This document shows, piece after piece, positions 2,279-25,919 of a DNA stretch of 26,896 nucleotides. Numbering within the stretch: position 1 is the stretch's first letter; every line of letters begins with the position of its first letter. The notes beneath the pieces were generated by a model that made no database searches, was not told the DNA's origin, and saw only the letters and a program-made list of their open reading frames with translations. This stretch comes from an uncultured Bacilli bacterium (GTDB taxonomy: Bacteria > Bacillota_I > Bacilli_A > RF39 > UBA660): NCBI GenBank assembly GCA_947625425.1, contig CANQOH010000016.1:1-26896 (forward strand). The letters are read 5' to 3'. The position numbers and the translations under genes are program-made.

Positions 2279-3250
2279 TCATTTTAGGTATTCTAAACTA
2301 CCTTCTTCTTGATTACTGATTACTCTTACTTTAAGGCCATTTATTAAAGTAAATGATGGTTTGACATGACCTAAATCAAAGTTAAAGATAACTTTGATAT
2401 CTGGGATAGCTTTAGCTATTAGTTCCTCATAACTCATATCAACAAAGGTATTAGGGAAACACACTTTACCAATTAAAATAGCTTTAGTATTTTTAAACCA
2501 ACCCGCATTTTTAAATTGTAACAAAGTATTATAAACGCCTTCACTAGTCATATTAAAGATATCAAAGTACCAGATTATTCCTTCATTACCGTATTTGTGA
2601 GTAAACTCTTTGGTCTTATCAAACTTAGTACCAATTAAATCTTTTAAGACTTCTAAACAACCACCAATTAAAATTCCTTGTTCATCTACTTCACCATTAA
2701 TATTTAACCAATTATTTTTTTTCGTAAGTTCATCACTAAAATGTTCAGCTTCCATAAATGGATATTTGTATTGTTTGACTAAGTCCCCTTTTAAGATTTT
2801 AAAGTAATTTAAATATGATCCATGTAAGGGGGTTATATTAAAACCGGACATATTACATGGAGAATAGATAGTAGCTATATCGTAATTAGTAGTTAAGATA
2901 TAGAGTAAACTAGTTGGATCACTACTACCAGCTAACCATTTAGGATGATTCTTTAAGATATTAAAATCGACTTTATCTAACATATCATAGAGGAAATCTC
3001 CACCGCTAGCGATAGCAACCATACTAACAGAATCATCTAAGAATAGACTTTCTAATTCTTTAGCTCTCGTAACTGGATCACTACTTACGACACCACCAGT
3101 ACGAACATTATTAGTTTCTTTGATTTTAAATTTATTTTGTTTAACATTATTAATACTAGTTTCATATTTTTCGATTTTATCTAGAACACCAGCACTACAA
3201 GCTGTAATACCAATAGTATCATTATCTTTTAAATATTTAGGAATAAGCAT
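2279..3250 (-). CDS. S66 family LD-carboxypeptidase/MccF-like serine peptidase
   Basis: Resembles the S66 family, whose members trim the murein tetrapeptide (LdcA) or cleave acyl-adenylate peptides such as processed microcin C (MccF). The length of 323 residues is normal. The start is ATG 3250, placed after AGAGGTG; the in-frame GTG at 3259 is part of that ribosome-binding site. The nucleophile elbow is GSSDPTSLL (Ser110) and the C-terminal GHVKPSFTL supplies His295. The region that usually reads LFLE is IIWYFDIFN here, so the position of the catalytic Glu appears to be Asp230. No signal peptide is visible, so it is probably cytoplasmic. It sits between a nucleotidase gene and the MarR-ABC operon, each with its own signals, so no functional link is certain. 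The family call is firm; the substrate is open. Confidence 0.88.
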   Translation of the reverse strand: MLIPKYLKDNDTIGITACSAGVLDKIEKYETSINNVKQNKFKIKETNNVRTGGVVSSDPVTRAKELESLFLDDSVSMVAIASGGDFLYDMLDKVDFNILKNHPKWLAGSSDPTSLLYILTTNYDIATIYSPCNMSGFNITPLHGSYLNYFKILKGDLVKQYKYPFMEAEHFSDELTKKNNWLNINGEVDEQGILIGGCLEVLKDLIGTKFDKTKEFTHKYGNEGIIWYFDIFNMTSEGVYNTLLQFKNAGWFKNTKAILIGKVCFPNTFVDMSYEELIAKAIPDIKVIFNFDLGHVKPSFTLINGLKVRVISNQEEGSLEYLK

Positions 3251-3268
3251 GATAAACACCTCTTTTTC

Positions 3269-9586: not shown

Positions 9587-10621
9587 TTATAAACATGGGG
9601 AATCTACTAAATATATTTTTTTATTAGTATAATCTACTTTAACTTTGGATCCTAATGGAATTATACCTACAGGATCTGAATGACCAATATTAACATTATA
9701 TAAAACTGGTAAGTCTTCTCTATTAAATTCTTTTAAGACTTTTTTATAAACTTCTTTATATTCTTCATAATATTGTTCATCTTGTGGTTTACCAACGATA
9801 ATTCCTTTAATGACATCAAAGATGCCTAAAGCACCTAAGTTTCTTAAATAAAAAGTTACATATTCAGGACTAGGTTTATCTTCACTTGTTTCTAGTAATA
9901 ATATTTTATCTTGCCATTCTTCTTTAGTTGGCCATATTTCAGTACCTACAACCATAGGGAAGACATCTAGACAACCACCTAAAATTTCACCTGTTACTAC
10001 TCCAGATCCTTGTAATACTTCATAGCCGTGTTCTTCTGGTCTTGTCTTTTTTTCCACATTAATATTTTCTTCTTGCCAAGCGACAAAATCATTAGACCAT
10101 ATTTTACTTGATTCTATTTCATAATTTTGGCAATCTTTAAATAAAATATTTTGCACAGCATTTTTAGTATAATCAAACATTTTAACATATTCGCCAAATT
10201 CACACATTATACAAGGGCCATAAAAAGATACTAAACCAGCTTTATTCATCATTAAATGATTAACTGTTGTATCAGAGTATCCCATAAATATTTTAGGATT
10301 ATTTTTTATTACTTCATAATCTATGTATGGTAATAATCTAACTGTATCATCACCACCAATAGCACAAAAAATACCTTTGATAGATTCATCTTTAAAAGCA
10401 GCCATTAAATCTTCAGCTCGAGCTTCAGGATGTTCATAGACAAATTCACTACCTTTTAAGGCATTCGGCATGGCTACAACTTCTAGACCAAATTCTTTTT
10501 CTAATCTCTCTTTAGCAATATAATATTTATGAATAAAATTATCATCACCAAGCATGCCACTAGATAAACTAACAACAGCTATTTTATCGCCTTTTTGTAA
10601 TCTTTGAGGTTTAATCATCAT
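9587..10621 (-). CDS. S66 serine carboxypeptidase, MccF/LdcA-like
   Basis: 344 residues, the same size as E. coli MccF. The catalytic triad typical of S66 is complete: Ser116 in MGYSDTTVNH, Glu244 in LLLETSEDKP and His314 in NIGHSDPVGIIPLG. Known members either remove the terminal D-Ala of murein tetrapeptides (LD-carboxypeptidase) or cleave the amide of processed microcin C, a poison of aspartyl-tRNA synthetase (MccF). The LLLETSEDKP region and the Trp-containing stretch near 175-182 resemble the MccF side of the family more than classic LdcA, by eye. There is no signal peptide. The gene has its own promoter and sits immediately before aspS with no factor-independent terminator between. It differs strongly from the other S66 gene in this window, so the pair is not a recent duplication. 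Confidence 0.88.
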   Translation of the reverse strand: MMIKPQRLQKGDKIAVVSLSSGMLGDDNFIHKYYIAKERLEKEFGLEVVAMPNALKGSEFVYEHPEARAEDLMAAFKDESIKGIFCAIGGDDTVRLLPYIDYEVIKNNPKIFMGYSDTTVNHLMMNKAGLVSFYGPCIMCEFGEYVKMFDYTKNAVQNILFKDCQNYEIESSKIWSNDFVAWQEENINVEKKTRPEEHGYEVLQGSGVVTGEILGGCLDVFPMVVGTEIWPTKEEWQDKILLLETSEDKPSPEYVTFYLRNLGALGIFDVIKGIIVGKPQDEQYYEEYKEVYKKVLKEFNREDLPVLYNVNIGHSDPVGIIPLGSKVKVDYTNKKIYLVDSPCL

Positions 10622-10702: not shown

Positions 10703-10728
10703 TAAAAACTAGATTTAAAAATCTAGTT
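10703..10728 (-). terminator. Terminator of the five-gene operon
   Basis: AACTAGATTT and AAATCTAGTT form a perfect 10-bp stem with a 2-base loop on the minus strand, followed by a T-run. The stem overlaps the stop codon at 10723. The same CTAGAT stem is used at 15195-15222. Confidence 0.85.
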
Positions 10729-11034
10729 CTTGTTTTTAAGATTAGTCATATATTTTATGTCACTATTTAATAATGTAACATAAGCACTTAAATTATCTAT
10801 TTTAGATAATGCTCTTTTAATATTTTCTTTACCAGCTAATAAGATATGATGATCAGTAGTTATAATATCTTCAATAGTTTTATTATTAACTCCTATTTCT
10901 CTTAAATACATTATGGAAGAATAGAAGCGATCAATACAGTTTTCTAGTTCTCTTCTTTCAGAAAGAGAACATGTTTCTTCTAAGAAATCAATAGTTTCTT
11001 TTGATAAATCAAAACCATCTAATAATTCAAACAT
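10723..11034 (-). CDS. Small helical protein, last gene of five-gene operon, unknown function
   Basis: 103 residues, almost certainly all alpha-helical and mildly acidic, with no membrane segment or recognised motif. A central TTDHHILLAGKENIKRAL stretch stands out. The ATG follows the preceding gene's TGA by four bases with AGGGGTGATTAG as ribosome-binding site, so it is translated from the same message as the 624-residue protein and may work with it. No similarity is claimed. Confidence 0.7.
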   Translation of the reverse strand: MFELLDGFDLSKETIDFLEETCSLSERRELENCIDRFYSSIMYLREIGVNNKTIEDIITTDHHILLAGKENIKRALSKIDNLSAYVTLLNSDIKYMTNLKNKN

Positions 11035-11038
11035 CTAA

Positions 11039-12913
11039 TCACCCCTTTAGTCCTAAAGAACTAACATATTCTTTTAAAGCTTTTAAATCACTATCGCGAT
11101 AATAACTATTATAAGTTAAAGCTAAGATAAATAATTGATCTTTATCAATATTATCAGCTAAACCACTTTTCATTATTAAAGTCCATATACGTTTAAATTT
11201 TAATTTAGAAACACGAACACCATTAATAACATAAGCATGTTCATTTTCTCCGACATTAGGATCATTATCTAAACGACTAATATATTCATCTTGAATAAAT
11301 TTATCAATATTATATTCATTTTCATCAATATAAGTTATTAAACTATCAGGTATATTAGCGATTAAATTTTCAATGTTATCACGATTAATTACTTCATCTA
11401 AATCATATGGTTCTTTTGTAGAACGTATACCTTTTAAACGATTAGTATTAGGATTTACAACTGTTGTTTCATAACCTTTATATAATTTATATAAAATTTT
11501 TCTGACAGATTTTTCTTCTTTTAAAATAGATGGATATTGGAATAAATAACCAAAGAAATCATTTTTATCATCACTATTTTCAATTAAAACATCAACTAGA
11601 TGAATAAAAATACGAGACGTTAAAACAGTTGGAGCTTTAATAAAATGATCATCACCTACTAGATTAATACCATAGATATTTGCAAATTTAATATTACGAG
11701 CAACAACATCAGAAGGTGTTGCTAAGACATCTGGTGAAGTATCTAGTACTTGACGATAGAAATCGACATCAGCATCTGAATGAGTTGCATTATATTCTTT
11801 AGATAACTTATCTAATAAATTAGAATTAATCTTATAGTATTCATATGAACCACTTAAGTAGTCATCATCAGTTGGTTCGCCACTAGGGCCTGGATTTTCT
11901 TTAGTACGAGATACTTTTTTATAAACACCATTAACGGTAAAGATATCTTCTACTCTAACGCCACGTGCTTTAGCATCTTCAATTAAATACTCTAAAGTTT
12001 CTTTAGAAGCAAAACGAATAACAAAGAATAACTTACGAATATTAATACTTCTTATTTTTTCATTTATATTACGAGATTTACCATATTGTTTAACAAATTC
12101 ATATTCAGGATGAGAAGTTAATACCTCTAAGACTTCTTCAATACGTCCTAAGTCACATCTAGTTCTTAAAATATGTTTTTGTTTATCATTAAAGATAGTA
12201 AAATCAAAATTATATTTATTAAAGATAGAAATAATTAAATCTTCATCTATTTCTTCGATTTGTTCTTGTTCATCTTCAAAATCTTCCATATCAGCTTCTA
12301 AGAAAGCTATATTATTTTCATTTATTTTTTCTTCCATACGATTTATTAAATCTAAAACACGATAACGATATGTCATTTCTTTAGAAGCTAAAATATTTAA
12401 TAAATACATTATTTCTTGATTTTGGAAATGAAATAAGCCTTCATCACCTTTACGTAACTTATCATATAGAGAAGTACATAATTCTAATTCAGATGTTTTC
12501 TTAGAAACACTTTGACGATAAGAATCATTTTCAGCTAAAGAAATAGTTTTAATTTGTTCAATAGCTTTAATTAATCTTTCAACAATCGCTAATTCAGATT
12601 CTTTATATTCATTAATAACACCATTATCTATACATTCTGCTAAGAAACATAAATAATCTAAATCATCGATAGCTTGAGTTAAGATAGATTTATCTTCTAA
12701 CTTAACACTAGCTAAGACAGATTGAATCTTGTTTTTAAAATCTGGTGATGCGAAACAAGTATTATTTTCACGAATATGATTAATAACTTTATCATATTCA
12801 TCAACATTTTTTAAACTATCATTAGAATCAGCAATAGAAGCATTTATTTCTCTAATCTTTTTAGCAACTATTCTAACAATCTCTTTTAAAAATTGTTCAT
12901 CAATCTCTTTCAT
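11039..12913 (-). CDS. Large helical cytoplasmic protein, unknown function
   Basis: 624 residues, helical, with no membrane segment or enzymatic motif that I can see. Several segments resemble short helical repeats: around residues 235-310 (EVLEVLTSHPEYEF, then LFFVIRFASKETLEYLIEDAKARGVRVEDIF) and again in the later third. An acidic patch occurs near residue 210 and a DDDYLSGSYEYYKIN segment near 345. Near the C-terminus INGVRVSKLKFKRIW looks like a basic, perhaps nucleic-acid-binding strand-helix. The ATG lies inside the end of the preceding gene (14-base overlap) with a strong GGAGGTG, so translation is coupled. It is probably a lineage-specific protein of the host, given its CGT-rich arginine codons, like the neighbours. 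Confidence 0.72.
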   Translation of the reverse strand: MKEIDEQFLKEIVRIVAKKIREINASIADSNDSLKNVDEYDKVINHIRENNTCFASPDFKNKIQSVLASVKLEDKSILTQAIDDLDYLCFLAECIDNGVINEYKESELAIVERLIKAIEQIKTISLAENDSYRQSVSKKTSELELCTSLYDKLRKGDEGLFHFQNQEIMYLLNILASKEMTYRYRVLDLINRMEEKINENNIAFLEADMEDFEDEQEQIEEIDEDLIISIFNKYNFDFTIFNDKQKHILRTRCDLGRIEEVLEVLTSHPEYEFVKQYGKSRNINEKIRSINIRKLFFVIRFASKETLEYLIEDAKARGVRVEDIFTVNGVYKKVSRTKENPGPSGEPTDDDYLSGSYEYYKINSNLLDKLSKEYNATHSDADVDFYRQVLDTSPDVLATPSDVVARNIKFANIYGINLVGDDHFIKAPTVLTSRIFIHLVDVLIENSDDKNDFFGYLFQYPSILKEEKSVRKILYKLYKGYETTVVNPNTNRLKGIRSTKEPYDLDEVINRDNIENLIANIPDSLITYIDENEYNIDKFIQDEYISRLDNDPNVGENEHAYVINGVRVSKLKFKRIWTLIMKSGLADNIDKDQLFILALTYNSYYRDSDLKALKEYVSSLGLKG

Positions 12914-13100
12914 TTCGCACCTCCTCTAATATTTCTATATATAAAGATAAATTATTTTTAGGATTATTTAATAAATCAATAAATTCTTCAGGACTTAGAC
13001 ATAATCGATCACATAAAGGTAAGATTTCAATATTACGATTTTTTATTTCATTAGTTATTTGGTATATCAAAGATATTACTTGAGTTCTTATTCTTTCCAT
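12900..13100 (-). CDS. Small helix-turn-helix-like protein, unknown function
   Basis: 66 residues. The start is ATG 13100, one base after the stop of the previous gene and behind AGGTGTG; the in-frame GTG at 13109 lies in that ribosome-binding site. The middle (ILPLCDRLCLSPEEFIDLLNN) reads like a Cro/XRE helix-turn-helix without the usual Gln, and the rest is helical. It could be a DNA-binding protein or simply a helical adaptor for its large neighbours; the sequence does not decide. It overlaps the next gene by 14 bases. Confidence 0.6.
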   Translation of the reverse strand: MERIRTQVISLIYQITNEIKNRNIEILPLCDRLCLSPEEFIDLLNNPKNNLSLYIEILEEVRNERD

Positions 13101-13101
13101 A

Positions 13102-14727
13102 CTACACACCTTTACCTAATGATTGACTAAAGACTAATTCATGGATAGCTTCACTACGTTTTAGTAATTTACGATATTCTAAAGTACCATCTTTAATTAT
13201 AGAATTTATTTTCTTTTCAACATTTATATCATAAGCATTTAAACGATTATTAACACTATTGTTATTCATTTCTTCTAAAGAACCACATGTAAAGATTAGA
13301 ATATGATTATTTGGTAAAGTTCTATATGTAACAAAGACAAGTTGACCAATTAATAATTTAAAACCAATTTTGGTACTTTTCTTAAGAAATCTAACACCAT
13401 CAAAACGACCATCTTCTAAACGAGATAGTAATGGTACTAAGTCATTTAGTTTTTCTGGAGTCATACTTTTCATATTCTTTTCAATTTCTGAAGAAGAACC
13501 ATTACTATAGAAGATTAATTTATATGGCTTTTCAGCTTCTTCAGTTTGAGGTATTTCACTTTCCGTAGCTTGTTCTAATTCTTTATCTTCTAAGGCTAAT
13601 TCATTTTCAAGAATACTTATAAAGTCTAGAGCTTGATCCATATCTTCTAAGACAAACTTAACATATTCATCAAAATCTTCAGTATATGTATCATTAATAT
13701 CGTTTAAGATAGTAGAATATTTTTCATAAAAACAGAAGAATAAGAATTTATAATAATCAGTTGTATTATATGCTATTTTGACATATTCAATTGATTTATC
13801 GATATCTTGTAAGTCTAAATTTAATTTAAAGCTTTCACGCATAGTTGGGGTTATTTTACCTAGATATTTATAAGCTTTATATTTTTCTTGTAAGATAGCT
13901 AGTTTTTGTTTTATTTCTTCACTACTAGATAATTTTTGACCTTGAATAGCAGGTTGTTCAGGAACGATAGGTTCAGGAATATCTTCTTCAACTTCTTCTG
14001 GTTCAGGAACGACTGAATCACTATTTGGTTTTAAAATTAAAGCATCTTCTTCAGGAATAGATTTTAAGATTTTCTTTTCTAAGGCAGCAGCCATAGCATT
14101 TCTTCGTTGTTCTTCTTTAGCTGATATTTCAGCCTTTAATTCATCTTCTTTTCTTTTATAATATTCGATTTGAATCATTGTTAAATTAAAATATACTTCT
14201 AACCATTCTTCAGGAGATAGATTAGCATGTTCAAAATAATATGATTCTAATGGTTCTAAGACATAATTAGGTAATTCACCATTTATAAAAGATTGTAAAT
14301 CATGAAACTTTTTAGCTATTTTTTTAGATTCTTCAATACGATGAATATTTACTTCATTTTTATTACTAAAAATATGACGAAGAAAGATTTGATTAACATA
14401 TTCCAAAATACTAGACATATCTTTATATCTTTCATGTTGTTGAAACTTAGGTTTTAATGCACATATTTTACAAAATGTAATTGCCTTTTCAATATCTGAT
14501 TTACTATAAGAAGGAATTTTTTCAAAAAGAGTTAATAGTTCCCATATTTTATCTAAAGGAATAGAAGTAATAGATTCTAAAACACTAGAGCCTTGTTTAT
14601 AATTAGTCATTAGGAAACTATGAGCATTATAAATAGTTTCATTTTCCTTTATACGTTGATCAAGAACATTTACATAAGTATTTAGTTTATCAATAAAACT
14701 AACCATAACATTATTTGATGAATCCAT
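13102..14727 (-). CDS. 541-residue helical protein with possible C-terminal RelE-like domain
   Basis: The N-terminal 220 residues are helical and end in a coiled coil with KRKEDELKAEISAKEEQRR. A Pro/Glu-rich linker (about 228-262) leads to a second helical part (about 263-400), an acidic spacer, and a C-terminal domain from about residue 400. That domain starts KLIFYSNGSSSEIEK and continues LLSRLEDGRFDGVRFLKKS, GFKLLIGQLVFVTYR and HILIFTCGS, a strand-helix-helix-strand order like RelE/ParE toxins. This is a pattern reading, not an established match; clear RelE catalytic residues cannot be assigned. The gene shares one base (TAATG) with the end of the upstream gene and is followed one base later by a small HTH-like gene, so it is tightly coupled in a five-gene operon. 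Confidence 0.65.
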   Translation of the reverse strand: MDSSNNVMVSFIDKLNTYVNVLDQRIKENETIYNAHSFLMTNYKQGSSVLESITSIPLDKIWELLTLFEKIPSYSKSDIEKAITFCKICALKPKFQQHERYKDMSSILEYVNQIFLRHIFSNKNEVNIHRIEESKKIAKKFHDLQSFINGELPNYVLEPLESYYFEHANLSPEEWLEVYFNLTMIQIEYYKRKEDELKAEISAKEEQRRNAMAAALEKKILKSIPEEDALILKPNSDSVVPEPEEVEEDIPEPIVPEQPAIQGQKLSSSEEIKQKLAILQEKYKAYKYLGKITPTMRESFKLNLDLQDIDKSIEYVKIAYNTTDYYKFLFFCFYEKYSTILNDINDTYTEDFDEYVKFVLEDMDQALDFISILENELALEDKELEQATESEIPQTEEAEKPYKLIFYSNGSSSEIEKNMKSMTPEKLNDLVPLLSRLEDGRFDGVRFLKKSTKIGFKLLIGQLVFVTYRTLPNNHILIFTCGSLEEMNNNSVNNRLNAYDINVEKKINSIIKDGTLEYRKLLKRSEAIHELVFSQSLGKGV

Positions 14728-15128
14728 TATCTCACCTTCCCTTCATCAGGAGTTTTAGTTAAAGACATTTGAGACTCTAATTTATCACAAAGACTTGATA
14801 TAGCAGTATATAAACGAATACTTAAATTATTTTCTAATTGAAGTTTAACTAAACGAGCATAGATATCATCTATAACACTTGGATCAAAATCAGCTACTTG
14901 AAGTAATTTACATAAAGCTAAATATTCTTCATAAGCTGATGGATCAACAGATTCTAATTTACTTAATTCCATTTTTAAACGAGCTAGTTCTAATTCAGCT
15001 CTTTTTTTACGAGATACTTTAACTGTAAAAATAGTATTTTCGTATTCATCTAATTGTTCTTTAGAAAAATTTTCTTTGTAGACATATAATTTTTTTAATA
15101 AGTTATTATTTTTATTATCAGTACTCAT
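14727..15128 (-). CDS. Helical coiled-coil protein, first gene of five-gene operon
   Basis: 133 residues, highly charged and predicted helical from end to end, with heptad-like leucines in AELELARLKMELSKLESVD. No known motif. It leads an operon of five genes with gaps or overlaps of a few bases, behind a strong promoter; the start is ATG 15128 after AGGGAAGTG. Its role presumably follows that of the two large helical proteins encoded next, with which it may assemble; that is inference from linkage alone. Confidence 0.7.
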   Translation of the reverse strand: MSTDNKNNNLLKKLYVYKENFSKEQLDEYENTIFTVKVSRKKRAELELARLKMELSKLESVDPSAYEEYLALCKLLQVADFDPSVIDDIYARLVKLQLENNLSIRLYTAISSLCDKLESQMSLTKTPDEGKVR

Positions 15129-15798: not shown

Positions 15799-15813
15799 GT
15801 CACAAATTGTGAC
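15799..15813. repeat. Perfect dyad GTCACAAATTGTGAC upstream of the transglutaminase-like gene
   Basis: A 7-1-7 palindrome about 30 bases before the ATG. It has a TGTGAC half-site shared with the dyad at 15844-15858, 45 bases away. No T-run follows it on the minus strand, so a protein-binding site is more likely than a terminator. Confidence 0.55.
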
Positions 15814-15843
15814 CAATTATTTTTTTCAAGTTTATTTTAAGCT

Positions 15844-15858
15844 GTGACATTTTGTCAC
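15844..15858. repeat. Second dyad GTGACATTTTGTCAC
   Basis: A 6-3-6 palindrome related to the one at 15799-15813, located between the end of the HEPN genes and the transglutaminase-like gene. The two may form a pair of operator sites or mark the island border. Confidence 0.5.
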
Positions 15859-15911
15859 GGGTTCATTTTTATTCTTTTTTTATAAATATTAATTTTTATA
15901 TATACTACACT

Positions 15912-16364
15912 CTATAGAAATTCTATATCGTTAAGTTCAAAACCATTATATTCAGTTATTTTCTTGTTTAATATAGAAAGTAGTTGCATTATTAAAAAAT
16001 CTATCTTTTGAAAAGAAACTTTTATATTTTTTGGATTAGTTACTACATGAAATAATTTATTTCTAATTCCACTTTCACCAAAAATTTCTTCAATATATTC
16101 AGTTGTTTTATCTGGTAATACATTTTTATTAATATTTAGAATTCCATCAGGTGTCCTCATAATTCCTTGTTCATTATGCTCGACATCTGATTCTGGTATC
16201 AATTTATAAATTTCTAAAATTAATTTTTCAATCAAAGGTATGCTATAGTATAAAGATGGTATCCCCTCTTTTTCTAATAAATCAGTGTCAATCTTTCCTA
16301 CTATTTTGATTGTATTTGAAGATTGAACTGCCCTTATTAAATCTATATATGTAATCTTATCCAT
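15912..16364 (-). CDS. HEPN-like protein with Rx4H motif (third of three)
   Basis: 150 residues. The helical segment PSLYYSIPLIEKLILEIYKLI followed later by GESGIRNKLFHV is the pattern of small HEPN proteins: a long helix pair and then Arg101-Asn102-x3-His106. Rx4-6H is the metal-independent ribonuclease signature of catalytic HEPN domains, often preceded by Gly and including Asn as here. It overlaps the preceding gene by 22 bases; the ATG is behind GGAAGTGAT. No antitoxin-like nucleotidyltransferase (MNT) gene lies beside it, so it is not a standard HEPN-MNT pair. A role as an RNase effector or sensor in phage defence is inferred from motif and neighbours. Confidence 0.65.
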   Translation of the reverse strand: MDKITYIDLIRAVQSSNTIKIVGKIDTDLLEKEGIPSLYYSIPLIEKLILEIYKLIPESDVEHNEQGIMRTPDGILNINKNVLPDKTTEYIEEIFGESGIRNKLFHVVTNPKNIKVSFQKIDFLIMQLLSILNKKITEYNGFELNDIEFL

Positions 16365-16837
16365 TCTATCACTTCCTTAATTATGTTTTTTTCATTCTCA
16401 CTTATATTAAAGTCAAAAATCAAATCATTGCTATCTATTTTTTTGTTATATCTATAGTTATAGTATTTTGATAAATCGTCTAGATTATTTAATTGAACTA
16501 TTCGTTCTATCATAAAATATAAATCATTAAAGTCTCCATATTCGTTAGATTTGTCTATTAATTTTATTATTTTATGTCCTAAATTTTCTATATCACTAAT
16601 AGGTATTTCAGAATTAAGTATAAGGTAATATTTACAACTTACTTCAATATAATAAAACAAGTTGTAATATATTGTTGGTTTACTCGAATTGTCTAAAGAA
16701 TAAATAGCCATTTTATAGGCGTCTTCTTTTATTCTTTCGTAATTTCTTGCTATTTTATCTAGTGTATTTTTTGCTTCTTTATTAGTTTCACTTTTGGAAT
16801 TTAGTAAATCATTGATTTTAAGCTTTTTGTGTTTCAT
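16343..16837 (-). CDS. HEPN-like helical protein without Rx4H (second of three)
   Basis: 164 residues. The segment YYNLFYYIEVSCKYYLILNSEIP...LGHKIIKLIDK resembles the first helices of HEPN proteins (a helix with a nucleotide-binding-like Glu-x3-Lys spacing, followed by a His before the next helix), but no Rx4-6H motif is present, so a non-catalytic HEPN or an unrelated helical bundle is possible. The gene overlaps both neighbours (20 bases with the 588-residue gene, 22 with the 150-residue gene). It has no clear ribosome-binding site, so translation is expected to depend on coupling to the upstream gene, giving roughly matched amounts of the proteins. It may be a regulator or partner of the two Rx4H proteins. 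Confidence 0.55.
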   Translation of the reverse strand: MKHKKLKINDLLNSKSETNKEAKNTLDKIARNYERIKEDAYKMAIYSLDNSSKPTIYYNLFYYIEVSCKYYLILNSEIPISDIENLGHKIIKLIDKSNEYGDFNDLYFMIERIVQLNNLDDLSKYYNYRYNKKIDSNDLIFDFNISENEKNIIKEVIEWIRLHI

Positions 16838-18584
16838 TTATTAAAACACTAATAAAAATTAATCCCACAAATGTTACTAATAAAGCCATGTCAAGATTTG
16901 TATTAATTAATGTGCCATGCATCATTTTGTTTCTTAAATTAAGCCCTGATTTTTCATATAAAATATAATTAATATACATAATTCCGTCTTTGATTTTTTC
17001 GTCTTCATAACATGTAAATAGTAAATTTAAATTATTATATCCATCTGTACTAGTTTTACTTTTATTAATTTCTAATAATTTCAATACATCTGCTTCAATT
17101 GCCAGAATATTACCTACAACCATTGAATAATCACTCTTGCTATTGTATGGGACATCTTTTTTTAAATCTTTTATTAATTTTTTAAAGTCGTCTTTTAAAA
17201 TAAAAATTATTAAATTTTGTTGCAATATAAAAGTTTTAGATAAATATTTTAATAACTCTTCATAATAATTTTCAGTTAATTTATTAACAAGAGATTTATG
17301 TTTTAAAGTATAGTTTTTCCCTATCTTATCGTAATATTTTTTAAAATTACTATTTTGGGATGGCGAATTTTCCTCAACATTTATCGAATAAGATAAATTG
17401 TTTGAATCAAATCGAATATTGGTAATGCTACTTTGAAGAGGATGTTCAGAATAAAATTTTAAAGCCTCTCCAACAGCCTTGGAAAAATTAACTTTTGATA
17501 ATGAATATATTGCATATTTATTATTCTTTATTGCTTTTTTTGTTTCTTCTATTTGTTCCTTAGGAATCACTTGAGTAGAACTTATTTCATGCATTTCTGA
17601 GTTAATATAATTTTCATCTGACAGCAAGTATCTTTTTAGTCTTAACAAATAACTTAAGCATTCTTTTATTTTATTTTTTTGAGTTGTGTTTAATGAACTA
17701 ATATTTTGTAATAAAAATAATAAATCCTTTTTTAAATCATCAATTTTAGAAATAACTTCAAGTATAGATGATTTTTTAACACAAAATTTTCTACATACTT
17801 CATTTACAATATCAATTAATTTATTAATAATTTTATTCGTTGATGTTTTAGTCAACGCGCTTGAGTTGTTTAATTTCAAAATAACTTTTTGATAATAATT
17901 GTATCCTCCATAATTCGATAAAGATTTATATATATATTCCAAATAATATTTTTTATTTTTTTTAATATTATTATCATACTTTATTATAGTAGATATGTTA
18001 ATATTATGACTAACTAATAAATCTACTAGTTCATTGTAAATTTCTTCTCTAACACTACTTAAATTATTAAATATCCTATCCAATAAGTCATTATTTATAT
18101 AAAGTGATTTCCCTATTGCATAATTAATCAGTTCTTTGTAAAAGTCACAAATCAAATTTAAATCATCATTAAAGAACTCTTGAGTTATTTTTAAGTTTTC
18201 TAATATACTTTTGAATTCTCTTTTTGCATCTGAATAATGCTTATATTTCTGCTTATATTCAATGCTATTTATCGTTTTAAAATATGTATAAAGGAATTCA
18301 ATTATTATAGTCTTTTCATATGTTAAATTATTTTTTTTTGCAAATATGTATAACTTAAAAATATATTTTAATATTTTTTTCTTTATATGTACTTCATAAC
18401 TATTAATTATCGTTAATATTCTATTATCATGGTAAAATAATTGACTATCTAAATATAGAAATTTTCTAAATTCTATATTAAATAAATCTATAGAACTGTT
18501 TTCTTTAAAATTATAATCAAATTCATTATCATTATAATCTACATCTAGTGGTTTGTTAAAGAAAACTTTAAACAATTTATACAT
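16818..18584 (-). CDS. Large protein with C-terminal HEPN-like domain (first of three)
   Basis: 588 residues, Lys/Asn/Ile-rich and helical. The first 440 residues show no motif I recognise. The C-terminal 120 residues contain a helix (MVVGNILAIEADVLKLLEI), a connecting segment, and GLNLRNKMMHGT, in which Arg551-Asn552-x3-His556 is an Rx4H motif of catalytic HEPN type. The LNLRN...HG context is like that of DUF4209-type HEPN proteins. The final hydrophobic helix after it (LVTFVGLIFISVLI) could be the last HEPN helix or a membrane segment. The ATG lies seven bases after a run of seven Gs that serves as ribosome-binding site. It follows the NERD gene by about 20 bases and leads the overlapping HEPN trio. 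The N-terminal part might be a sensor. Confidence 0.65.
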   Translation of the reverse strand: MYKLFKVFFNKPLDVDYNDNEFDYNFKENSSIDLFNIEFRKFLYLDSQLFYHDNRILTIINSYEVHIKKKILKYIFKLYIFAKKNNLTYEKTIIIEFLYTYFKTINSIEYKQKYKHYSDAKREFKSILENLKITQEFFNDDLNLICDFYKELINYAIGKSLYINNDLLDRIFNNLSSVREEIYNELVDLLVSHNINISTIIKYDNNIKKNKKYYLEYIYKSLSNYGGYNYYQKVILKLNNSSALTKTSTNKIINKLIDIVNEVCRKFCVKKSSILEVISKIDDLKKDLLFLLQNISSLNTTQKNKIKECLSYLLRLKRYLLSDENYINSEMHEISSTQVIPKEQIEETKKAIKNNKYAIYSLSKVNFSKAVGEALKFYSEHPLQSSITNIRFDSNNLSYSINVEENSPSQNSNFKKYYDKIGKNYTLKHKSLVNKLTENYYEELLKYLSKTFILQQNLIIFILKDDFKKLIKDLKKDVPYNSKSDYSMVVGNILAIEADVLKLLEINKSKTSTDGYNNLNLLFTCYEDEKIKDGIMYINYILYEKSGLNLRNKMMHGTLINTNLDMALLVTFVGLIFISVLINETQKA

Positions 18585-18591
18585 AAAATTT

Positions 18592-18598
18592 CCCCCCC
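18592..18598 (-). promoter_or_regulatory. G7 tract in ribosome-binding site of the 588-residue gene
   Basis: Seven consecutive Gs on the minus strand form the Shine-Dalgarno sequence, seven bases before the ATG. Homopolymer G runs are rare in DNA this AT-rich and are prone to slippage, which would change the strength or spacing of the site. Confidence 0.55.
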
Positions 18599-18604
18599 TG
18601 TTTC

Positions 18605-19396
18605 TTATAAATTTTTAGTAAAATGGCATTTAGGATAATTACTACAACCAATGAATGAACCATATTTACCATTTTTAACAACTAATGTTCCTCCACATTT
18701 AGGGCAGATCATTTCATTAACTTTATTATTATCATCTTTTATTTTAGTTTTAATATTTTTTACATGTTCTTTTCTTAATTTTTTATCTTTAATATTTAAT
18801 TCATTTAATTTGTTAGTAATAGTATTAATATCTACATCTAATATTTCATTATGATATTTCTTAATTGTATCGACTAAGAAATCTAATTGAACTACTGGAG
18901 TATTACTTGTTACTTTTACTTTAGCTCTATTAGATAAACTTATAATAGAAATAAATTTATCTTCACTAATATTTAATACTTCACTTAAAGCTTTGATATG
19001 ACCATAGTTTTGATGAATAGGGTTTTTAAAATAATATTTTTGTTTTCCTAAGTATTGTGTCCAATCCTCACTATATTCTTTACCTACTATTAATCCACTA
19101 TAGTTTTTAGTTTCAATTACAAAAATACCATATTTAGATATTACTATATGATCTATTTGATGGGTAGTATTATTACTATATATCATTATATTATTTAAGA
19201 TAATATAATCTTTTTTAGATAATTTCCATAGTTCTGTTTTAACCCAAAACTCACCCATAAATCCGATTATTTTAGAATAAAAGATTGCACATAGTATGCC
19301 AAATATAACGAATCCAATATATATTGGATTAGAAAGAAATGTTTCAGTAAAAGTTTTCATAAAACCTTCTATAAAAGCTTTGATAATATCAATCAT
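18605..19396 (-). CDS. Membrane-anchored NERD-domain nuclease-like protein with topoisomerase-type zinc finger
   Basis: 263 residues. A hydrophobic helix at about 25-45 anchors it. The NERD domain, a PD-(D/E)XK-like nuclease fold, follows: Gly48-Glu49 in a helix, Gln80 and Asp82 in THQIDHIVIS, and the Glu95-x-Lys97 pair in VIETKNYSG, with Asn130 further on. All expected catalytic positions are present. The C-terminus has a type IA topoisomerase-like zinc ribbon, CPKCGG at 231-236 and Cys251/Cys257 in CSNYPKC, which usually binds DNA. The start ATG 19396 is preceded by GGAG; an earlier TTG at 19405 overlaps that site. NERD-Zn proteins occur in many ordinary genomes, so this could be a housekeeping gene, but here it lies 20 bases before the HEPN trio and follows the terminator of the R-M operon. 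Confidence 0.85.
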   Translation of the reverse strand: MIDIIKAFIEGFMKTFTETFLSNPIYIGFVIFGILCAIFYSKIIGFMGEFWVKTELWKLSKKDYIILNNIMIYSNNTTHQIDHIVISKYGIFVIETKNYSGLIVGKEYSEDWTQYLGKQKYYFKNPIHQNYGHIKALSEVLNISEDKFISIISLSNRAKVKVTSNTPVVQLDFLVDTIKKYHNEILDVDINTITNKLNELNIKDKKLRKEHVKNIKTKIKDDNNKVNEMICPKCGGTLVVKNGKYGSFIGCSNYPKCHFTKNL

Positions 19397-19445
19397 ATAT
19401 TTCAAACTCCTAAATTAATTATAATTTTATTATAAAATAAAGATT

Positions 19446-19474
19446 TAAAAAAGCAATGTTATTTTAACATTGCT
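19446..19474 (-). terminator. Terminator of the type III R-M operon
   Basis: AGCAATGTTA and TAACATTGCT form a perfect 10-bp stem with a 3-base loop, followed by TTTTTT on the minus strand. It separates the R-M operon from the NERD gene. Confidence 0.88.
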
Positions 19475-19507: not shown

Positions 19508-20170
19508 TTATACATATTCTAATAATAAATATCCTATGTTTGTTATTGAAAACTTATCAATATCATAAATATCTATATTCCCTGGATAGTTGGCAGATAA
19601 ACTAATTATAAAATCATTTTCAATTAGACTTTTTAAGCCAAAAGATATCTCTAATAATTCTCCATTTAGTTCTTTTGAAGTTAAAATATCTCTATATGAT
19701 AATGTCTGGTCAATGTTTGTATATAACTTTAAAAATTCTGACCATTCATAATAATTTTCATCTTTTACAATTGATTTTATCTTCTTCACAACATTCAAAG
19801 ATTCTCGTGATAATAGGCATATTTTTTCAAGTAATATATCGTATCCATTATTATTTTGTTTTTCTGATACATAGTCTAAAAAAATTTTGATATTTGTTTC
19901 TACTAAGGCTGGATCTGTTTTGGTAAAATAAAAACTTAGAAAATTTTTAATATGTATATACTTTGCGCTGTCATCAATTAAGTAAGTAAGCTTTTCTATA
20001 GAGAAATTAATCTCTTTTAATTTATCTTCTAAATAATTTATTTTTTCAAAGACCAGATCTTTATTTTCTTCATCTATAGTTGCAATTAAGCCTGCAATCA
20101 AAGGATATTGTTGTAAAACTGACAAAATTGTATTTTTACCCAATGTAAGTGCAATATTCTTTCTTTTCAT
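19508..20170 (-). CDS. Unknown 220-residue protein in the type III R-M operon
   Basis: I do not recognise this protein. It is helical, with an N-terminal part (LGKNTILSVLQQYPLIAGLI) of amphipathic or weakly hydrophobic character and a long helical middle (LEDKLKEINFSIEKLTYLI). The C-terminal 45 residues (ELNGELLEISFGLKSLIENDFI, then FSITNIGYLLLEYV) read like a winged helix with a final strand. The ATG has AAGGAAATTAT in front and lies 26 bases after res, before the operon terminator, so it is made from the same message as Mod and Res. It could be a regulator, an anti-restriction safeguard or an abortive-infection effector; nothing in the sequence decides. Confidence 0.6.
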   Translation of the reverse strand: MKRKNIALTLGKNTILSVLQQYPLIAGLIATIDEENKDLVFEKINYLEDKLKEINFSIEKLTYLIDDSAKYIHIKNFLSFYFTKTDPALVETNIKIFLDYVSEKQNNNGYDILLEKICLLSRESLNVVKKIKSIVKDENYYEWSEFLKLYTNIDQTLSYRDILTSKELNGELLEISFGLKSLIENDFIISLSANYPGNIDIYDIDKFSITNIGYLLLEYV

Positions 20171-20196: not shown

Positions 20197-22806
20197 TTAA
20201 ATAGACTCAATCCATTTATTTATGTATTCTTCAAATTCTGATTTTTTAAAATTTTCATTGTAAAAAGGTAAGCCAATTATTTTGTATATATTTCCATAAG
20301 TATAAAGTTCATTTGGGTATGCTTCTGACTCCATTTTTAGCATAAATTCTTCTTTCCACTTATCTTCCTCTAAAAGATTATCTCCTTTTGGTTCAGCATA
20401 TAATTGATAAGTTGTAAATTTATGATTAATCTCTTTTTTAACGAGTAGTAAAAAATCAGGTTCAAATCTTTCTCCATGCTCGAAACTATACACAGCAATT
20501 TCAGGAACTCTTTCATTTCTAATTACATAAAATTCTAAATTTTTCTCCAATAATTTTGGTTCTATATAAGTTTTGAAAAATTTTATAAATAATTTTTCTT
20601 CACTAGTTCCATAATTATCATTAAAAACATACCATTTTTCTTTTGATAAATCCAACTTATAATCATCATTAGTGCATGTATTTTGAGATGAACCTTTTCC
20701 ACCATTTTCATCTATATGTGATAGATATATACTCTTGTCTTTAATAACATCTTTAAGCATTTTTGGTTCAAATTTTTTTGTTCCCTCATATTCCTGTTTA
20801 ATCGAAATTATATGGTTGGATATTTCAGCAAATGCTTTTATACAAGCATTCATCATATCTCTGCCACTAATTTTATCATCATACGATATTTCCAATGTTG
20901 AATTACCAAGATATTTATCACCTGTAAGAAATTCTTTCATGGATTTTAAATTAGGATACTTCATTTTTACTACATCAAATCTCAATTCATTAAATCGTTC
21001 AGAAGCTCCTGACAAAATATTATAATCTATGTCTTTAAATTTAATTGTACTAATATTTACATTGTTATCAGTCGATTTTTCGTTATCTCCTATTAAATCT
21101 AGAATTGCTCCTTTATTTGTTTTAACTACATATTTGTATGATTTCGTTTTCATACTATCCTCGATGTCACTAATTTGATCTCTACTTTTCGGAATTCGTT
21201 TATTAGAAAAAATAAATGCTTGTTTATAAAAGTTAGATTCTTTAAATTCATCTTTTAAATAATAGTCTAATTTAATAGAATTTTGTGCTTGTAAACCTGT
21301 TTGGATTAAGGCCTGTTTTAATTCCGCTATGTAAGACGAATCATTTCGACTATGAAAAAACATTGTTTCTAATATCCTTAGATCATTATCAACATCATTA
21401 TCATATTTTCTTTTATACTTTTCTTGTTCATCATTTAATGCAAAAGGGCAATATCTAGCACCTCTACCAATTAATTGAGCTTCTTTGATAGTATAGCTTC
21501 CAATTTTTCCAGCCTTTCCACTTCCCTGTCTTGTATCATAAAGTCTTACTATATCAAATAAATTTAAAACATCCCAACCCTCATTTAGCATATCAACAGT
21601 GAATATTGTTCTTATTGGGTTATTAGAATCTTCTAACGAATTTACTAACAATTGTTTATCCTTGTTATTATCGTTTTCATCATTCATAATAATACTTGTT
21701 TCTTTAGTAAAAGAATCTTTTATACTATGTTCCAATAATTCAAATGTTTCATCCTTTGATTTAAAATAATCTAATGCTTTAATCAAAATATCGATGTTAG
21801 AATTATACAAACTCATTAATTCATAGCTAGTAAGATTATCTATTTTTTCAAAAAACAAATTATAAAATGATTTAGAATCTACTATTTTTTGTGATTTCAA
21901 CATTAAAACTGGTTTTACATTTAAATGATTATCATTAAATAGAAATTTTCTATATTCGCTCAATACAATAGCCATTAGTGTTCTATCCCATAATTCACTC
22001 TCAGTAGCAAAATTTTGAAAATCTTTAGTATATCCACTTTCTCTAAACTTTTTGAGTTGATAATCAAAAACAATTTTGTCTTTATACTTTTCTTCTACAT
22101 ATTTATCGTGTAAATCTGCAGTTGCAGTAAATTCTAACATAATGCTATCTTTATTTTGTGAAAAAGCATTCATAACGGAATACTCCCAACTGTTTCTTTC
22201 TGCTTCTTCATCTTTAGTTTCCTTTTTTGTTAAAGAATTAATATGATGAGATTCATCAGATATAAAAACAATTTTATTATCTTCAAAATCTTTAAATGTT
22301 ATTGAATTTTCCTTTGGAAACATTAAATCATAATGAAGTTTTTGGGTAGTAGTAAAACAAATCTCAATAGTGTCATCAAATCCTGTTGTAAAATTATCTA
22401 CCATTTTAATTTTTAAATTACTACCCATGTGTTTTAATTCTTTATTAAATAAATATTTATTTGATAATGGATTTAAAAAATTTTCTTTTGTTTTTTCTAT
22501 AACATTAGATTGGTTAACAAAAAACAGAAATTTATTATACCCTTTAGAATATAAATATAAAATCAACCCAGCCATAATAATAGTTTTTCCACTTCCAGTA
22601 GCCATATGAAACAAAGTATGAATTTGTTTGTTTTTTCTTATATTTTCATTTTCATAATAAGTTATAAAATATTGAAAGGCTTTTGTTTGATATTCTCTCA
22701 ATTCTATTTTATTTGATAATCCCTCTACTAAAAAATTGGGTACTGGAGATAACATACCCAGTTCATCAAGGATTTCTATTATTTCATATAAGTATTTATC
22801 TCCCAT
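20197..22806 (-). CDS. res: Type III restriction endonuclease subunit Res
   Basis: Large ATP-driven subunit that, with Mod, translocates or diffuses along DNA and cuts unmethylated sites. From the chosen start it has 869 residues. Helicase superfamily 2 motifs: Q-like LREYQ at 36-40, Walker A MATGSGKT at 68-75, DESH at 184-187, motif III EFTATAD and motif VI QLIGRGARYCPF. The C-terminal PD-(D/E)XK nuclease domain has Asp784 in FEPDFLLL and Glu805-Pro-Lys807 in YAEPKG, the type III Res signature. All catalytic positions look intact. The longest reading frame begins at 22872 inside mod, but ATG 22806 is one base past the mod stop and has GGGGAAA upstream, so it is preferred; an ATG at 22821 is an alternative. 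Confidence 0.93.
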   Translation of the reverse strand: MGDKYLYEIIEILDELGMLSPVPNFLVEGLSNKIELREYQTKAFQYFITYYENENIRKNKQIHTLFHMATGSGKTIIMAGLILYLYSKGYNKFLFFVNQSNVIEKTKENFLNPLSNKYLFNKELKHMGSNLKIKMVDNFTTGFDDTIEICFTTTQKLHYDLMFPKENSITFKDFEDNKIVFISDESHHINSLTKKETKDEEAERNSWEYSVMNAFSQNKDSIMLEFTATADLHDKYVEEKYKDKIVFDYQLKKFRESGYTKDFQNFATESELWDRTLMAIVLSEYRKFLFNDNHLNVKPVLMLKSQKIVDSKSFYNLFFEKIDNLTSYELMSLYNSNIDILIKALDYFKSKDETFELLEHSIKDSFTKETSIIMNDENDNNKDKQLLVNSLEDSNNPIRTIFTVDMLNEGWDVLNLFDIVRLYDTRQGSGKAGKIGSYTIKEAQLIGRGARYCPFALNDEQEKYKRKYDNDVDNDLRILETMFFHSRNDSSYIAELKQALIQTGLQAQNSIKLDYYLKDEFKESNFYKQAFIFSNKRIPKSRDQISDIEDSMKTKSYKYVVKTNKGAILDLIGDNEKSTDNNVNISTIKFKDIDYNILSGASERFNELRFDVVKMKYPNLKSMKEFLTGDKYLGNSTLEISYDDKISGRDMMNACIKAFAEISNHIISIKQEYEGTKKFEPKMLKDVIKDKSIYLSHIDENGGKGSSQNTCTNDDYKLDLSKEKWYVFNDNYGTSEEKLFIKFFKTYIEPKLLEKNLEFYVIRNERVPEIAVYSFEHGERFEPDFLLLVKKEINHKFTTYQLYAEPKGDNLLEEDKWKEEFMLKMESEAYPNELYTYGNIYKIIGLPFYNENFKKSEFEEYINKWIESI

Positions 22807-22807
22807 T

Positions 22808-24808
22808 TTAAATTTCCCCATAAAAAGACATCGTAAATTCTTTATCTGACTCAGATATAGTAAAATCTCCATTGTCTATATCTGATTTATTAATATATAA
22901 TTTGTTTTTATCTACTAGATTTTGCAAAATTTTTTTCTTATCATCTGTTGATAATTTATTGAATAAGTCATCTATTTCTTCAAGTTCTTTTCTTGTAACA
23001 TGAGAAATTATTCTATCATCAGAATAAATCTCATTTTTCAAACTATCTATTTCTTCGGCTGTGGATTCTTGAATTTTTTTAATTAAACTTTGAGAATTTT
23101 CTAATAATTCACAGTATACAAATGATCCACCCGAGTTCCAATTAACTTCTTTTGAAATTCCTGTTTGATCTCCATCTATAACATTTTTTAATCTGCTTAT
23201 TTCCTTATCAATATGATCATCTAATTGTTCAATCAAAATATATTTTCTATTCATTTTATGAGCAACAGCACCAGTTGTTCCGGTTCCTGCAAAAAAATCC
23301 AAAATAATATCATTAGGCTTTGTTACCATTTTAATTATCCTGTACAAAATCTTTTCTGGCTTTTTACCATTTTCTAATGTTACATTTCCTTCTTTTGAAA
23401 TAGCACCTGATGTTTTAATATCTTGCCAAAAATCGCATGGGTTTTTATAAATATTTTCATCAGCAAAAACAACTCTTAGTCTTGGTGATTTTGTATCTGC
23501 ATTATAATCAGTAATATAAAAGAATAAAACATTCTCATTTGATAGAGCACATGCTATATCCTGATTATAATTTTTTCCTATTCGTTTTACAAGTTTGAAT
23601 AAACTATCAGAACCACAAGTTTTTATTATTCTAAATGAGTTATTAAAACACCACTCCTCAATTTCCTTAGCTTCTTTTAAATTTAACTCATTTATTTTTT
23701 CTTTTAATGATTTCTTTTTTACATTTTTTAAAATAGATAATGCTTCTTGGACATCTTCATCTGTTTTATTCTCTTTTTCTGATATTTCAATTAATTTTTT
23801 TCTAGATGATTCTTCAAAATTTTCTAAATATATATTATTTTCATTATCCCATTCATTTGTTTTGTATTTGTCAATTTCTTCAAATCCTTTAAAGTCAGGC
23901 ATTTTATAAAATAAAATATATTCTTTAAGTTTTGGAAACCTTATTTTTGCATGACTCATTTTAACACCGGTTGCTTCACTCATTTTAACAGCAATACAAT
24001 TAACAAAATTTCTTACATCAAAAATTTCATCACATAAAACTTTTAAATATGCTTGTTCATTATCATCACATTGAATAAAAATACTACCATCATTTTTTAA
24101 CAGTCTTTTTGCTACTTCTAGTCGATTTTTCATAAATGTAAGCCATGAACTATGATTAAATTTATCGTTATATCCGAAACTATCGTTGCCAGTATTATAT
24201 GGAATATCAATATATATACATTTGATTTTGCCCTCATATTTTTCTAATAACGAATATAGAGCTATCAAATTATTCCCCTTTATTACTAAATTATCATTTT
24301 CAAATTTTATCTTTCTTTCTGTTCCATCTTTAGAATATCTACATGCATTCCCTAAAACTTTTGGACTTAACATTCTAGTGATTTCATCACTCGCAATGGT
24401 TTCATTATAAAATATTTCATCTCTCTTTTGATCCTCTTTTGTTTGACCACCCTCAAGTACGCAGTCTTTGTATGGAAAATCTAAAACTACATCATTGTTT
24501 TTTAATATAAATTTATTGTCACTAGATAAACCAATTTTATTAGCATAAATTGTATAGCTATCTGGTAAAAATTCCTTTGATTCTATAAACCATGCAAATC
24601 CTTGTTTATCAAAAACATAGCAATCATTTACTTTAATAAAAAAATACTTTTCTACTTCCGAATCACTCATTAATAATTTTATTAAATCTGAGTTCATAGT
24701 CATTGCATCTGCATAAACTGAAGTTTTTAGAAGTTTGCCATCATCCGATACATATTTTTCATTTGACACAAGAAGTTCTGCTACTTTAGAATAAATATTT
24801 GTTTTCAT
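22808..24808 (-). CDS. mod: Type III DNA methyltransferase subunit Mod (N6-adenine, beta class)
   Basis: Recognises the target and methylates adenine. 666 residues. Motif IV comes first (CIYIDIPYNTG, residues 198-207) and motif I later (LDFFAGTGTTG, ending at 513), the beta-class order of type III Mod enzymes. The long segment between them, about 300 residues, is the target-recognition region and shows no match I can name. The catalytic motif is DIPY rather than the common DPPY. The N-terminal part includes FAWFIESKEF and the C-terminus is a helical domain that joins Mod dimers or Res. The start is ATG 24808 behind GGAGGTACAA; an upstream ATG at 24826 gives six more residues but lacks a site. 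It begins the R-M operon. Confidence 0.93.
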   Translation of the reverse strand: MKTNIYSKVAELLVSNEKYVSDDGKLLKTSVYADAMTMNSDLIKLLMSDSEVEKYFFIKVNDCYVFDKQGFAWFIESKEFLPDSYTIYANKIGLSSDNKFILKNNDVVLDFPYKDCVLEGGQTKEDQKRDEIFYNETIASDEITRMLSPKVLGNACRYSKDGTERKIKFENDNLVIKGNNLIALYSLLEKYEGKIKCIYIDIPYNTGNDSFGYNDKFNHSSWLTFMKNRLEVAKRLLKNDGSIFIQCDDNEQAYLKVLCDEIFDVRNFVNCIAVKMSEATGVKMSHAKIRFPKLKEYILFYKMPDFKGFEEIDKYKTNEWDNENNIYLENFEESSRKKLIEISEKENKTDEDVQEALSILKNVKKKSLKEKINELNLKEAKEIEEWCFNNSFRIIKTCGSDSLFKLVKRIGKNYNQDIACALSNENVLFFYITDYNADTKSPRLRVVFADENIYKNPCDFWQDIKTSGAISKEGNVTLENGKKPEKILYRIIKMVTKPNDIILDFFAGTGTTGAVAHKMNRKYILIEQLDDHIDKEISRLKNVIDGDQTGISKEVNWNSGGSFVYCELLENSQSLIKKIQESTAEEIDSLKNEIYSDDRIISHVTRKELEEIDDLFNKLSTDDKKKILQNLVDKNKLYINKSDIDNGDFTISESDKEFTMSFYGEI

Positions 24809-24831
24809 TTGTACCTCCATTTTCATTTATA

Positions 24832-25010: not shown

Positions 25011-25919
25011 CTACTTATTAAACTCTGGCATCTCAAGTACTAACCTCTTAGGTTTATCTTGGTCTTCGGTGTACTTAAGCCATTTATCTTCTCTTACTCT
25101 ATCGATTGTATCTAAGTCATGTTGATATTTTAGGAGTGATATTTCTTTAGCATAGGAATCTTCTTTTTTACTAGTTCTTTCTTGACCTTTTAATAATAAA
25201 GATCTATATCCATCACTAAGTAATGAATTAGTATATTTAGTATATAGTTCATTTGAATCATCTAAGTCATTATTACCGATATCTATTTTATATACTTTTG
25301 ATAATAATTTAACTGTATCTTGATATGATAAACCTTCATATAACATAATATAACCTGTCATATTAAATGATTCACCACATGCAAAACAACGACCTAGTCC
25401 TACTCCATTACTAATACCTAGTGATGGACTTTTTTCTCTATGAAACTGACAAGTAAATAAATATGAATCTAGAGAATATGGTTTTATTTTAGGATTAGTA
25501 TTATTAGTATATACTAAATGAGTTAATGAACATTCTTCTTGTAAGTATTGTTTTAATGTTTTAGGAACAATACTTTCTTCTAGTAGTTTTAATAATTTAG
25601 TATAATCTGCTAATACAGATGTTATTTGTTCTAACCATGCTCTTTTATTATCTCTAGTAGTTATATATTCTTCTTTATCTTTTTCATTTTCTTTTTGTCT
25701 TAATATATAACTATATAATCTTACATATTCATACCAGTCTAAATAAGCTCTTTTTTTCATAAGAACTACTTCTTTAATTACTTTTTTTATTACTTCATAA
25801 TCTTCTAAAGTTAAACCAGTACTATGTAAGTAATAGTAGTATTTATTTAATTCTTGATTATACATTTCAAGTAATTCATAATCACTTATTTCATAATCTT
25901 TTTCTTCTAATATTTCCAT
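25011..25919 (-). CDS. CHC2 zinc-finger protein without primase catalytic domain
   Basis: 302 residues. Residues 157-181 read C-x2-H-REKSPSLGIS...C-x2-C (CQFH and CFAC), followed by GESFNMTGYIMLYEGLSYQDTVKLLSKVY. This is the CHC2 zinc-binding domain of DnaG-type primases, including the conserved REKSPS stretch and the helix after the last Cys. DnaG would next carry a Toprim core, but only about 120 more residues follow with no Toprim motif (no E-G-x-x-D). The N-terminal 130 residues are helical and unlike DnaG. So it is a CHC2-only protein, perhaps a DNA-binding or replication accessory factor. It follows the 262-residue gene by 25 bases, in the same operon. Arginine codons include CGT, as in host genes. 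Confidence 0.78.
   Translation of the reverse strand: MEILEEKDYEISDYELLEMYNQELNKYYYYLHSTGLTLEDYEVIKKVIKEVVLMKKRAYLDWYEYVRLYSYILRQKENEKDKEEYITTRDNKRAWLEQITSVLADYTKLLKLLEESIVPKTLKQYLQEECSLTHLVYTNNTNPKIKPYSLDSYLFTCQFHREKSPSLGISNGVGLGRCFACGESFNMTGYIMLYEGLSYQDTVKLLSKVYKIDIGNNDLDDSNELYTKYTNSLLSDGYRSLLLKGQERTSKKEDSYAKEISLLKYQHDLDTIDRVREDKWLKYTEDQDKPKRLVLEMPEFNK

Follow-up and report, generated by a model that had tools for sequence, protein, structure and literature searches.

Four open reading frames follow one another on the minus strand within positions 15912-19405 of a 26,896-nucleotide stretch of DNA from an uncultured Bacilli bacterium (GenBank assembly GCA_947625425.1, contig CANQOH010000016.1; this whole stretch is called the window below), and the question they raise is which of them work together, and at what. 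In 5' to 3' order they encode a NERD protein and proteins of 588, 164 and 150 residues. The original prediction, made from the sequence alone, was of one four-gene defence cassette in which a membrane-anchored NERD nuclease would act on DNA and HEPN proteins on RNA, with the middle protein as antidote or sensor. The answer we reach is narrower: the locus probably holds a two-gene HEPN module, made of the 588- and 150-residue proteins and joined here by an optional 164-residue one, that would serve as a signal-triggered, RNA-cutting defence or toxin-like response. The physical arrangement itself was as predicted: the coordinates bear out a NERD gene followed within 20 bases by three overlapping genes, the NERD stop lying 20 bases from the start of the 588-residue gene (16818-18584), which shares 20 bases with the 164-residue gene (16343-16837), which in turn shares 22 bases with the 150-residue gene (15912-16364).

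The two proteins of the module are set apart by a motif, R-N-x3-H. A count over the window's 30 stop-to-stop frames of 100 residues or longer (9216 residues in all) gives two occurrences only, one in each protein: as R551-N-K-M-M-H556 in the 588-residue protein (16917-16934, minus strand) and as R101-N-K-L-F-H106 in the 150-residue protein (16047-16064, minus strand). These residues had been placed correctly. The longer form first proposed, G-x-x-R-N-x3-H, had the glycine spacing wrong in both proteins (G-x3-R in the larger, G-x-R in the smaller), which is of no consequence for the argument, and the motif, said to end both proteins, sits two thirds of the way along the smaller one. Alignments from which near-copies and fragments had been removed, and which included the window's own sequences, comprised 69 members of the 588-residue family and 44 of the 150-residue family. 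In the former R and H are invariant (69/69), the position after R being N in 65 and D in 4; in the latter R, N and H are all invariant (44/44). Invariant glutamates are also found in the long helix that precedes the motif: E497 in the larger protein, E46 and E51 in the smaller.

The 588-residue protein consists of an alpha-helical repeat region (about residues 1-480) and a C-terminal DUF4209/HEPN domain (residues 485-588; 16821-17132, minus strand), in which DSSP analysis of the model delineates a long helix, two helices, a short helix bearing the motif and a further long helix. Its match to PF13910 (DUF4209), at residues 533-575, is by itself just short of the cut-off (21.9 against 22.3 bits); 65 of the 69 aligned sequences match at E ≤ 0.1, and the homologue in genome G001 passes the cut-off at 22.8 bits. 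With a PF13910 match and R-x4-H, the protein can on sequence grounds be placed in the C6orf70/DUF4209 HEPN family. Matches of a few family members to other Pfam entries were taken as chance. Foldseek returned no match to the model at E ≤ 0.001; what Foldseek/VIA listed were folds of the helical-repeat, designed-repeat and 14-3-3-like bundle type, aligned for the most part with residues 13-334; they hardly covered the HEPN part and have no bearing on it. One relative, P0104 (458 residues, from a single metagenomic contig of 29157 bases), retains the N-terminal part, with 57% identity to P0075 across 320 columns, and ends in a different HEPN family, pEK499_p136 (E 1.4e-7), which has an R-N-x3-H of its own. 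Unless this single instance is an assembly chimera, the helical part may be a module able to drive different HEPN effectors.

The 150-residue protein stands alone as a HEPN unit: its model has the predicted four-helix HEPN fold, and its sequence carries the R-x4-6-H of active HEPN families, from which RNase activity can be predicted. Among the closest solved folds are the Csm6 and MntA-HepT HEPN RNases (PDB 6tug, 6m6u, 7bxo, 7ae6). Scattered Pfam matches among the 44 sequences—PRD in two (best E 0.0019), MC7, the ABC-3C middle component, in two (best E 0.1), and 16 others—were set aside as chance. The notion of HEPN RNase effectors thus survives for these two proteins as far as HEPN type and invariant R and H are concerned, their RNase activity being what such residues lead one to expect. 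Whether the two share an origin is a separate matter: comparison of the 588-residue HEPN profile with that of the 150-residue protein gave no alignment, so paralogy is not shown, and the 164-residue family profile (three middle sequences) aligned with neither. PDB sequence searches with all three family profiles found nothing meaningful, and the PHROGs search gave no useful match for any of the three proteins.

The pair, rather than the whole row, is what recurs elsewhere. Scanning genome contigs for the 588-residue family yielded six loci in metagenome-assembled genomes of uncultured Bacilli, Tenericutes and Mollicutes, and genome searches added a seventh (L017, in G603). Three of these (L001, L003, L006) have the order 588-164-150 with overlaps of 11-31 bases at both junctions, and three (L004, L005, L017) have 588-150 with no middle gene and overlaps of 1, 20 and 8 bases respectively, the last requiring a GTG start, the next ATG leaving a one-base gap; the contig of L002 stops within the 588-residue gene. 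In every complete copy read, therefore, the two belong to a single string of genes that overlap or touch. Each of the seven genomes has a single match to the 588-residue family, six have one to the 150-residue family (the exception being G002, whose contig ends) and three have one to the 164-residue family, and all these matches lie within the module. In the protein collection, the longest contigs of 10 of 56 clusters of the 150-residue protein, the window's own included, equal to the base the longest contig of a 588-residue cluster, an equality that suggests but does not prove that the contigs are the same. The identity matrices of the two proteins agree over seven loci (r 0.89; 2 of 5040 permutations), and thus, as far as sequences tell, the two genes are inherited together. 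The survey of neighbourhoods proposed at the outset accordingly upholds the 588-150 pair, and finds no NERD match within the sequence available at the other module loci and the middle gene optional.

The reading of a two-gene module draws on this gene order and co-occurrence, on the conserved R and H, on the predicted HEPN-like fold of the smaller protein and the DUF4209 domain of the larger, and on the neighbours described below; from these we infer RNase activity, a complex, a trigger and an anti-phage effect, which would fit together as follows. Because their genes overlap or touch in every complete copy, the two proteins are probably made together, and they would probably act together. The helical-repeat part of the larger would be a sensor or scaffold, and the R-N/D-x3-H of both an RNase site as in active HEPN families. 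A silent complex of the two, whose helical part keeps the site shut, would be released by a phage- or stress-derived signal; RNA of the host, the phage or both (tRNA or mRNA) would then be cleaved by the HEPN domains and growth halted, the outcome being abortive infection or a toxin-like response, which the middle protein, where present, might modulate.

Two HEPN proteins raise the further possibility that they share one active site. In active HEPN RNases two HEPN domains come together so that their R-x4-6-H motifs line one cleft, and Cas13 makes such a composite site from two HEPN domains in one chain; the active enzymes known are either homodimers or carry both HEPN domains on a single chain. 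Here the 588- and 150-residue proteins might instead each give one R-N-x3-H half to a split, heteromeric RNase, with the helical sensor on one chain and the optional third protein as regulator. A composite site needing both genes would explain why the two were not found apart and why both carry the motif. We hold this more specific form only tentatively.

A toxin-antitoxin pair, in which one HEPN protein, of 150 or 588 residues, is an RNase toxin and another product an antitoxin dedicated to it, after the manner of two-gene type II systems, is a different matter and turns largely on the middle protein. The genes are small and overlapping and at several loci have restriction-modification (R-M), AbiEii or recombinase genes beside them, and the 164-residue protein of the window has, as had been noticed, no R-x4-6-H; the HEPN-like helices read in it at the outset are putative. 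Of the four middle proteins checked, those of L001 and L006 likewise lack the motif, and only that of L003 has an R-x4-H, formed by its last residues (R164-H169). The six family members share invariant residues, E65, K69, H88, W159 and L162-H163 among others, and none has a Pfam match over the cut-off; SocA_Panacea similarity in two of the six (E 0.36 and 0.054), which would suit an antitoxin, is below cut-off and within chance. Nor did a scan of the six middle proteins and 20 proteins of the window find a nucleotidyltransferase, so that membership of the MNT-HEPN toxin-antitoxin class, which calls for an adjacent minimal nucleotidyltransferase (MNT), was rejected; AbiEii at L003 has its own DUF6088 partner, both lying downstream of the module. 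Also against an antitoxin is that the middle gene is missing from three of the six other loci (L004, L005 and L017/G603), with no 164-family match elsewhere in those genomes, which rules it out as an obligatory antidote, the role first suggested for it. Both remaining proteins, moreover, keep the invariant R and H, residues for which a pure antitoxin would have no use. A classic toxin-antitoxin system is thus less likely, since the sole motif-less protein is optional, though one HEPN protein could restrain the other; we regard the dedicated-antitoxin scheme as unlikely.

The defensive character of the two-gene module has itself to be weighed against an RNA-processing or stress function of these Bacilli, with R-M genes nearby by chance. 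The predicted type III R-M operon does adjoin the cassette, just upstream (20197-24826, minus strand; Mod 22808-24826, Res 20197-22872), and several other copies also lie among genes of R-M or toxin-antitoxin type, as a defence neighbourhood would have it. L006 is preceded by T5orf172, an EcoRI-type methylase and a GmrSD/HNH nuclease and followed by a serine recombinase and Fic; L003 is preceded by T5orf172 and a phosphoesterase and followed by DUF6088 and AbiEii; AAA_21 and RloB lie downstream of L017, an integrase and an IS110 transposase near L005, and ASCH near L002. R-M, RloB or AbiEii-type genes are thus near four of the eight loci, the window counted, and mobile-element genes near four (L001, L004, L005, L006); R-M, toxin-antitoxin-type or mobile-element genes together are near seven of the eight, the call at L004 resting on an IS200-like frame upstream recognized by eye and that at L001 on a transposase-type gene (PDDEXK_2) some 4.8 kb upstream.

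The distribution is sparse as well. Counting the genome of the window, the 588-residue family was found in one of 395 genomes of the class and in two of 193 in each of two draws from the family, which have many genomes in common; the 150-residue family in four of 385 genomes of the order, one of them (G575) a chance match in a Lon-like frame, Lon being recognized by eye; and the 164-residue family in one of 122 genomes of the family, that of the window itself. The 588-residue gene sits where the G+C content of the window is at its lowest over kilobases (0.20-0.21). These features suggest genes that are mobile and dispensable, and so speak against a non-defensive role. In favour of such a role are the housekeeping-type neighbour Tex at L001, where an M73-type protein is also encoded, the lack of any relative of the 588- or 150-residue protein in the viral contigs, phages and plasmids scanned, and the prediction (PMC3710099) that eukaryotic C6orf70 relatives take part in RNA decay linked to the endoplasmic reticulum. 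On balance we think a non-defensive role improbable. A search for empty sites with the 541-residue neighbour of the window gave two weak partial matches only, in 146 genomes.

That NERD and the HEPN proteins form one system, attractive insofar as the NERD gene begins after a terminator-like hairpin and ends so close to the 588-residue gene that they may share a transcript, is very improbable, since tblastn with NERD gave nothing better than E 3.5 at the seven other module loci (with only 1477, 925, 527 and 916 upstream bases for L002, L004, L005 and L017), NERD is common without the module, and G001 has the module and no NERD match. The NERD protein, which combines an N-terminal hydrophobic segment with a topoisomerase-type zinc ribbon (18605-19396, minus strand, 263 residues from the ATG at 19396, or 266 from a TTG at 19405), has homologues at E ≤ 2.3e-51 in 24 of 146 genomes of the order, the larger tally of 137/146 also counting topoisomerase-type zinc ribbons, and at the 12 of their loci that were read no gene of the module lies closer than roughly 1.5 kb. 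A conserved NERD-588-164-150 order was found neither at the seven module loci, within the bases available, nor at these 12, and the NERD gene is probably a local neighbour only, perhaps co-transcribed here. The hairpin, with its T run (19452-19474, minus strand; z -2.86), stands between NERD and the R-M side, so that at this locus the four genes may be transcribed together and separately from the type III R-M genes; purine-rich, ribosome-binding-like stretches, read by eye, precede both the NERD and the 588-residue genes. In several related genomes (L038-L044), NERD genes lie directly 3' of serine recombinase-like frames, by eye, which suggests mobile cargo.

Other features of the window deserve a record. 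Two short palindromes whose GTGAC/GTCAC half-sites stand in opposite order (15799-15813 and 15842-15860), between the 150-residue gene and a transglutaminase-like gene, look as much like operator sites as terminators. Directly behind Res, on the far side of the hairpin from NERD, a 220-residue frame (19508-20170), which matched nothing in Pfam or PADLOC and nothing notable in NCBIfam, may be an accessory gene of the R-M operon. A row of genes at 10723-15128 encodes proteins of 133, 541, 69, 624 and 103 residues; those of 541 and 624 have no Pfam match, and for the former 146 genomes of the order gave two relatives, both weak and partial, one beside a gene like that of 69 residues. A 302-residue protein (25011-25919), whose only primase-type Pfam match is a DnaG-type CHC2 zinc finger, adjoins a 265-residue protein with no confident family. 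S66 LD-carboxypeptidase genes at 2279-3259 and 9587-10621 flank an aspartyl-tRNA synthetase gene.

An operon that keeps two different HEPN proteins of active type would offer a natural test of HEPN sites built from unlike subunits, and of the switching of such a site by a sensor on only one of them; and DUF4209 proteins, a family that extends to human C6orf70, would gain a tractable experimental system on their bacterial side. Its parts are of known kinds. Anantharaman et al. (2013, PMC3710099) described DUF4209 as a HEPN family that occurs in R-M operons, and the window's protein resembles that family in its C-terminal HEPN with R-x4-H, its helical N-terminal part and its R-M neighbourhood; the passages on the family in that paper name no second HEPN gene beside it, whereas here the 150-residue HEPN gene follows in all complete copies read. 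The R-M link is therefore already published, and for the paired operon no description was found: the open-licence PMC literature yielded none of a paired or heterodimeric HEPN operon like this one, and searches there for HEPN with NERD and for PDC-S39 turned up none of this operon. Within the phylum, a DUF4209 scan found matches in 8 of 392 genomes, 7 of them above the cut-off, and in none of 14 control genomes; three other DUF4209 proteins of the phylum that were read (L029, L030, L031; 555-575 residues) are solo and differ from that of the window in that the stretches read around them lack the 150-residue partner; helix-turn-helix-like frames, by eye, follow them. PADLOC gives a weak match of the DUF4209 part to PDC-S39 (E 0.0042, 13.9 bits), a candidate whose PDC-S prefix we take to denote a single gene; with residues 533-559 alone aligned, to 27 of 615 model positions, membership was rejected. 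The type III-A CoCoNuT effector CnuE, in the account available from PMC11090510, likewise has two HEPN domains per system, one with RxxxxH, but a single polypeptide carries both, and it is fused to, or encoded alongside, other CoCoNuT parts (helicase, McrB-type GTPase), none of which has a match in the three module genes. Among the closest in fold to the 150-residue protein are Csm6 and MntA-HepT, also HEPN RNases with R-x4-6-H. Those enzymes work as dimers; the present locus showed neither a CARF domain nor an MNT partner, and two different HEPN proteins stand in place of one.

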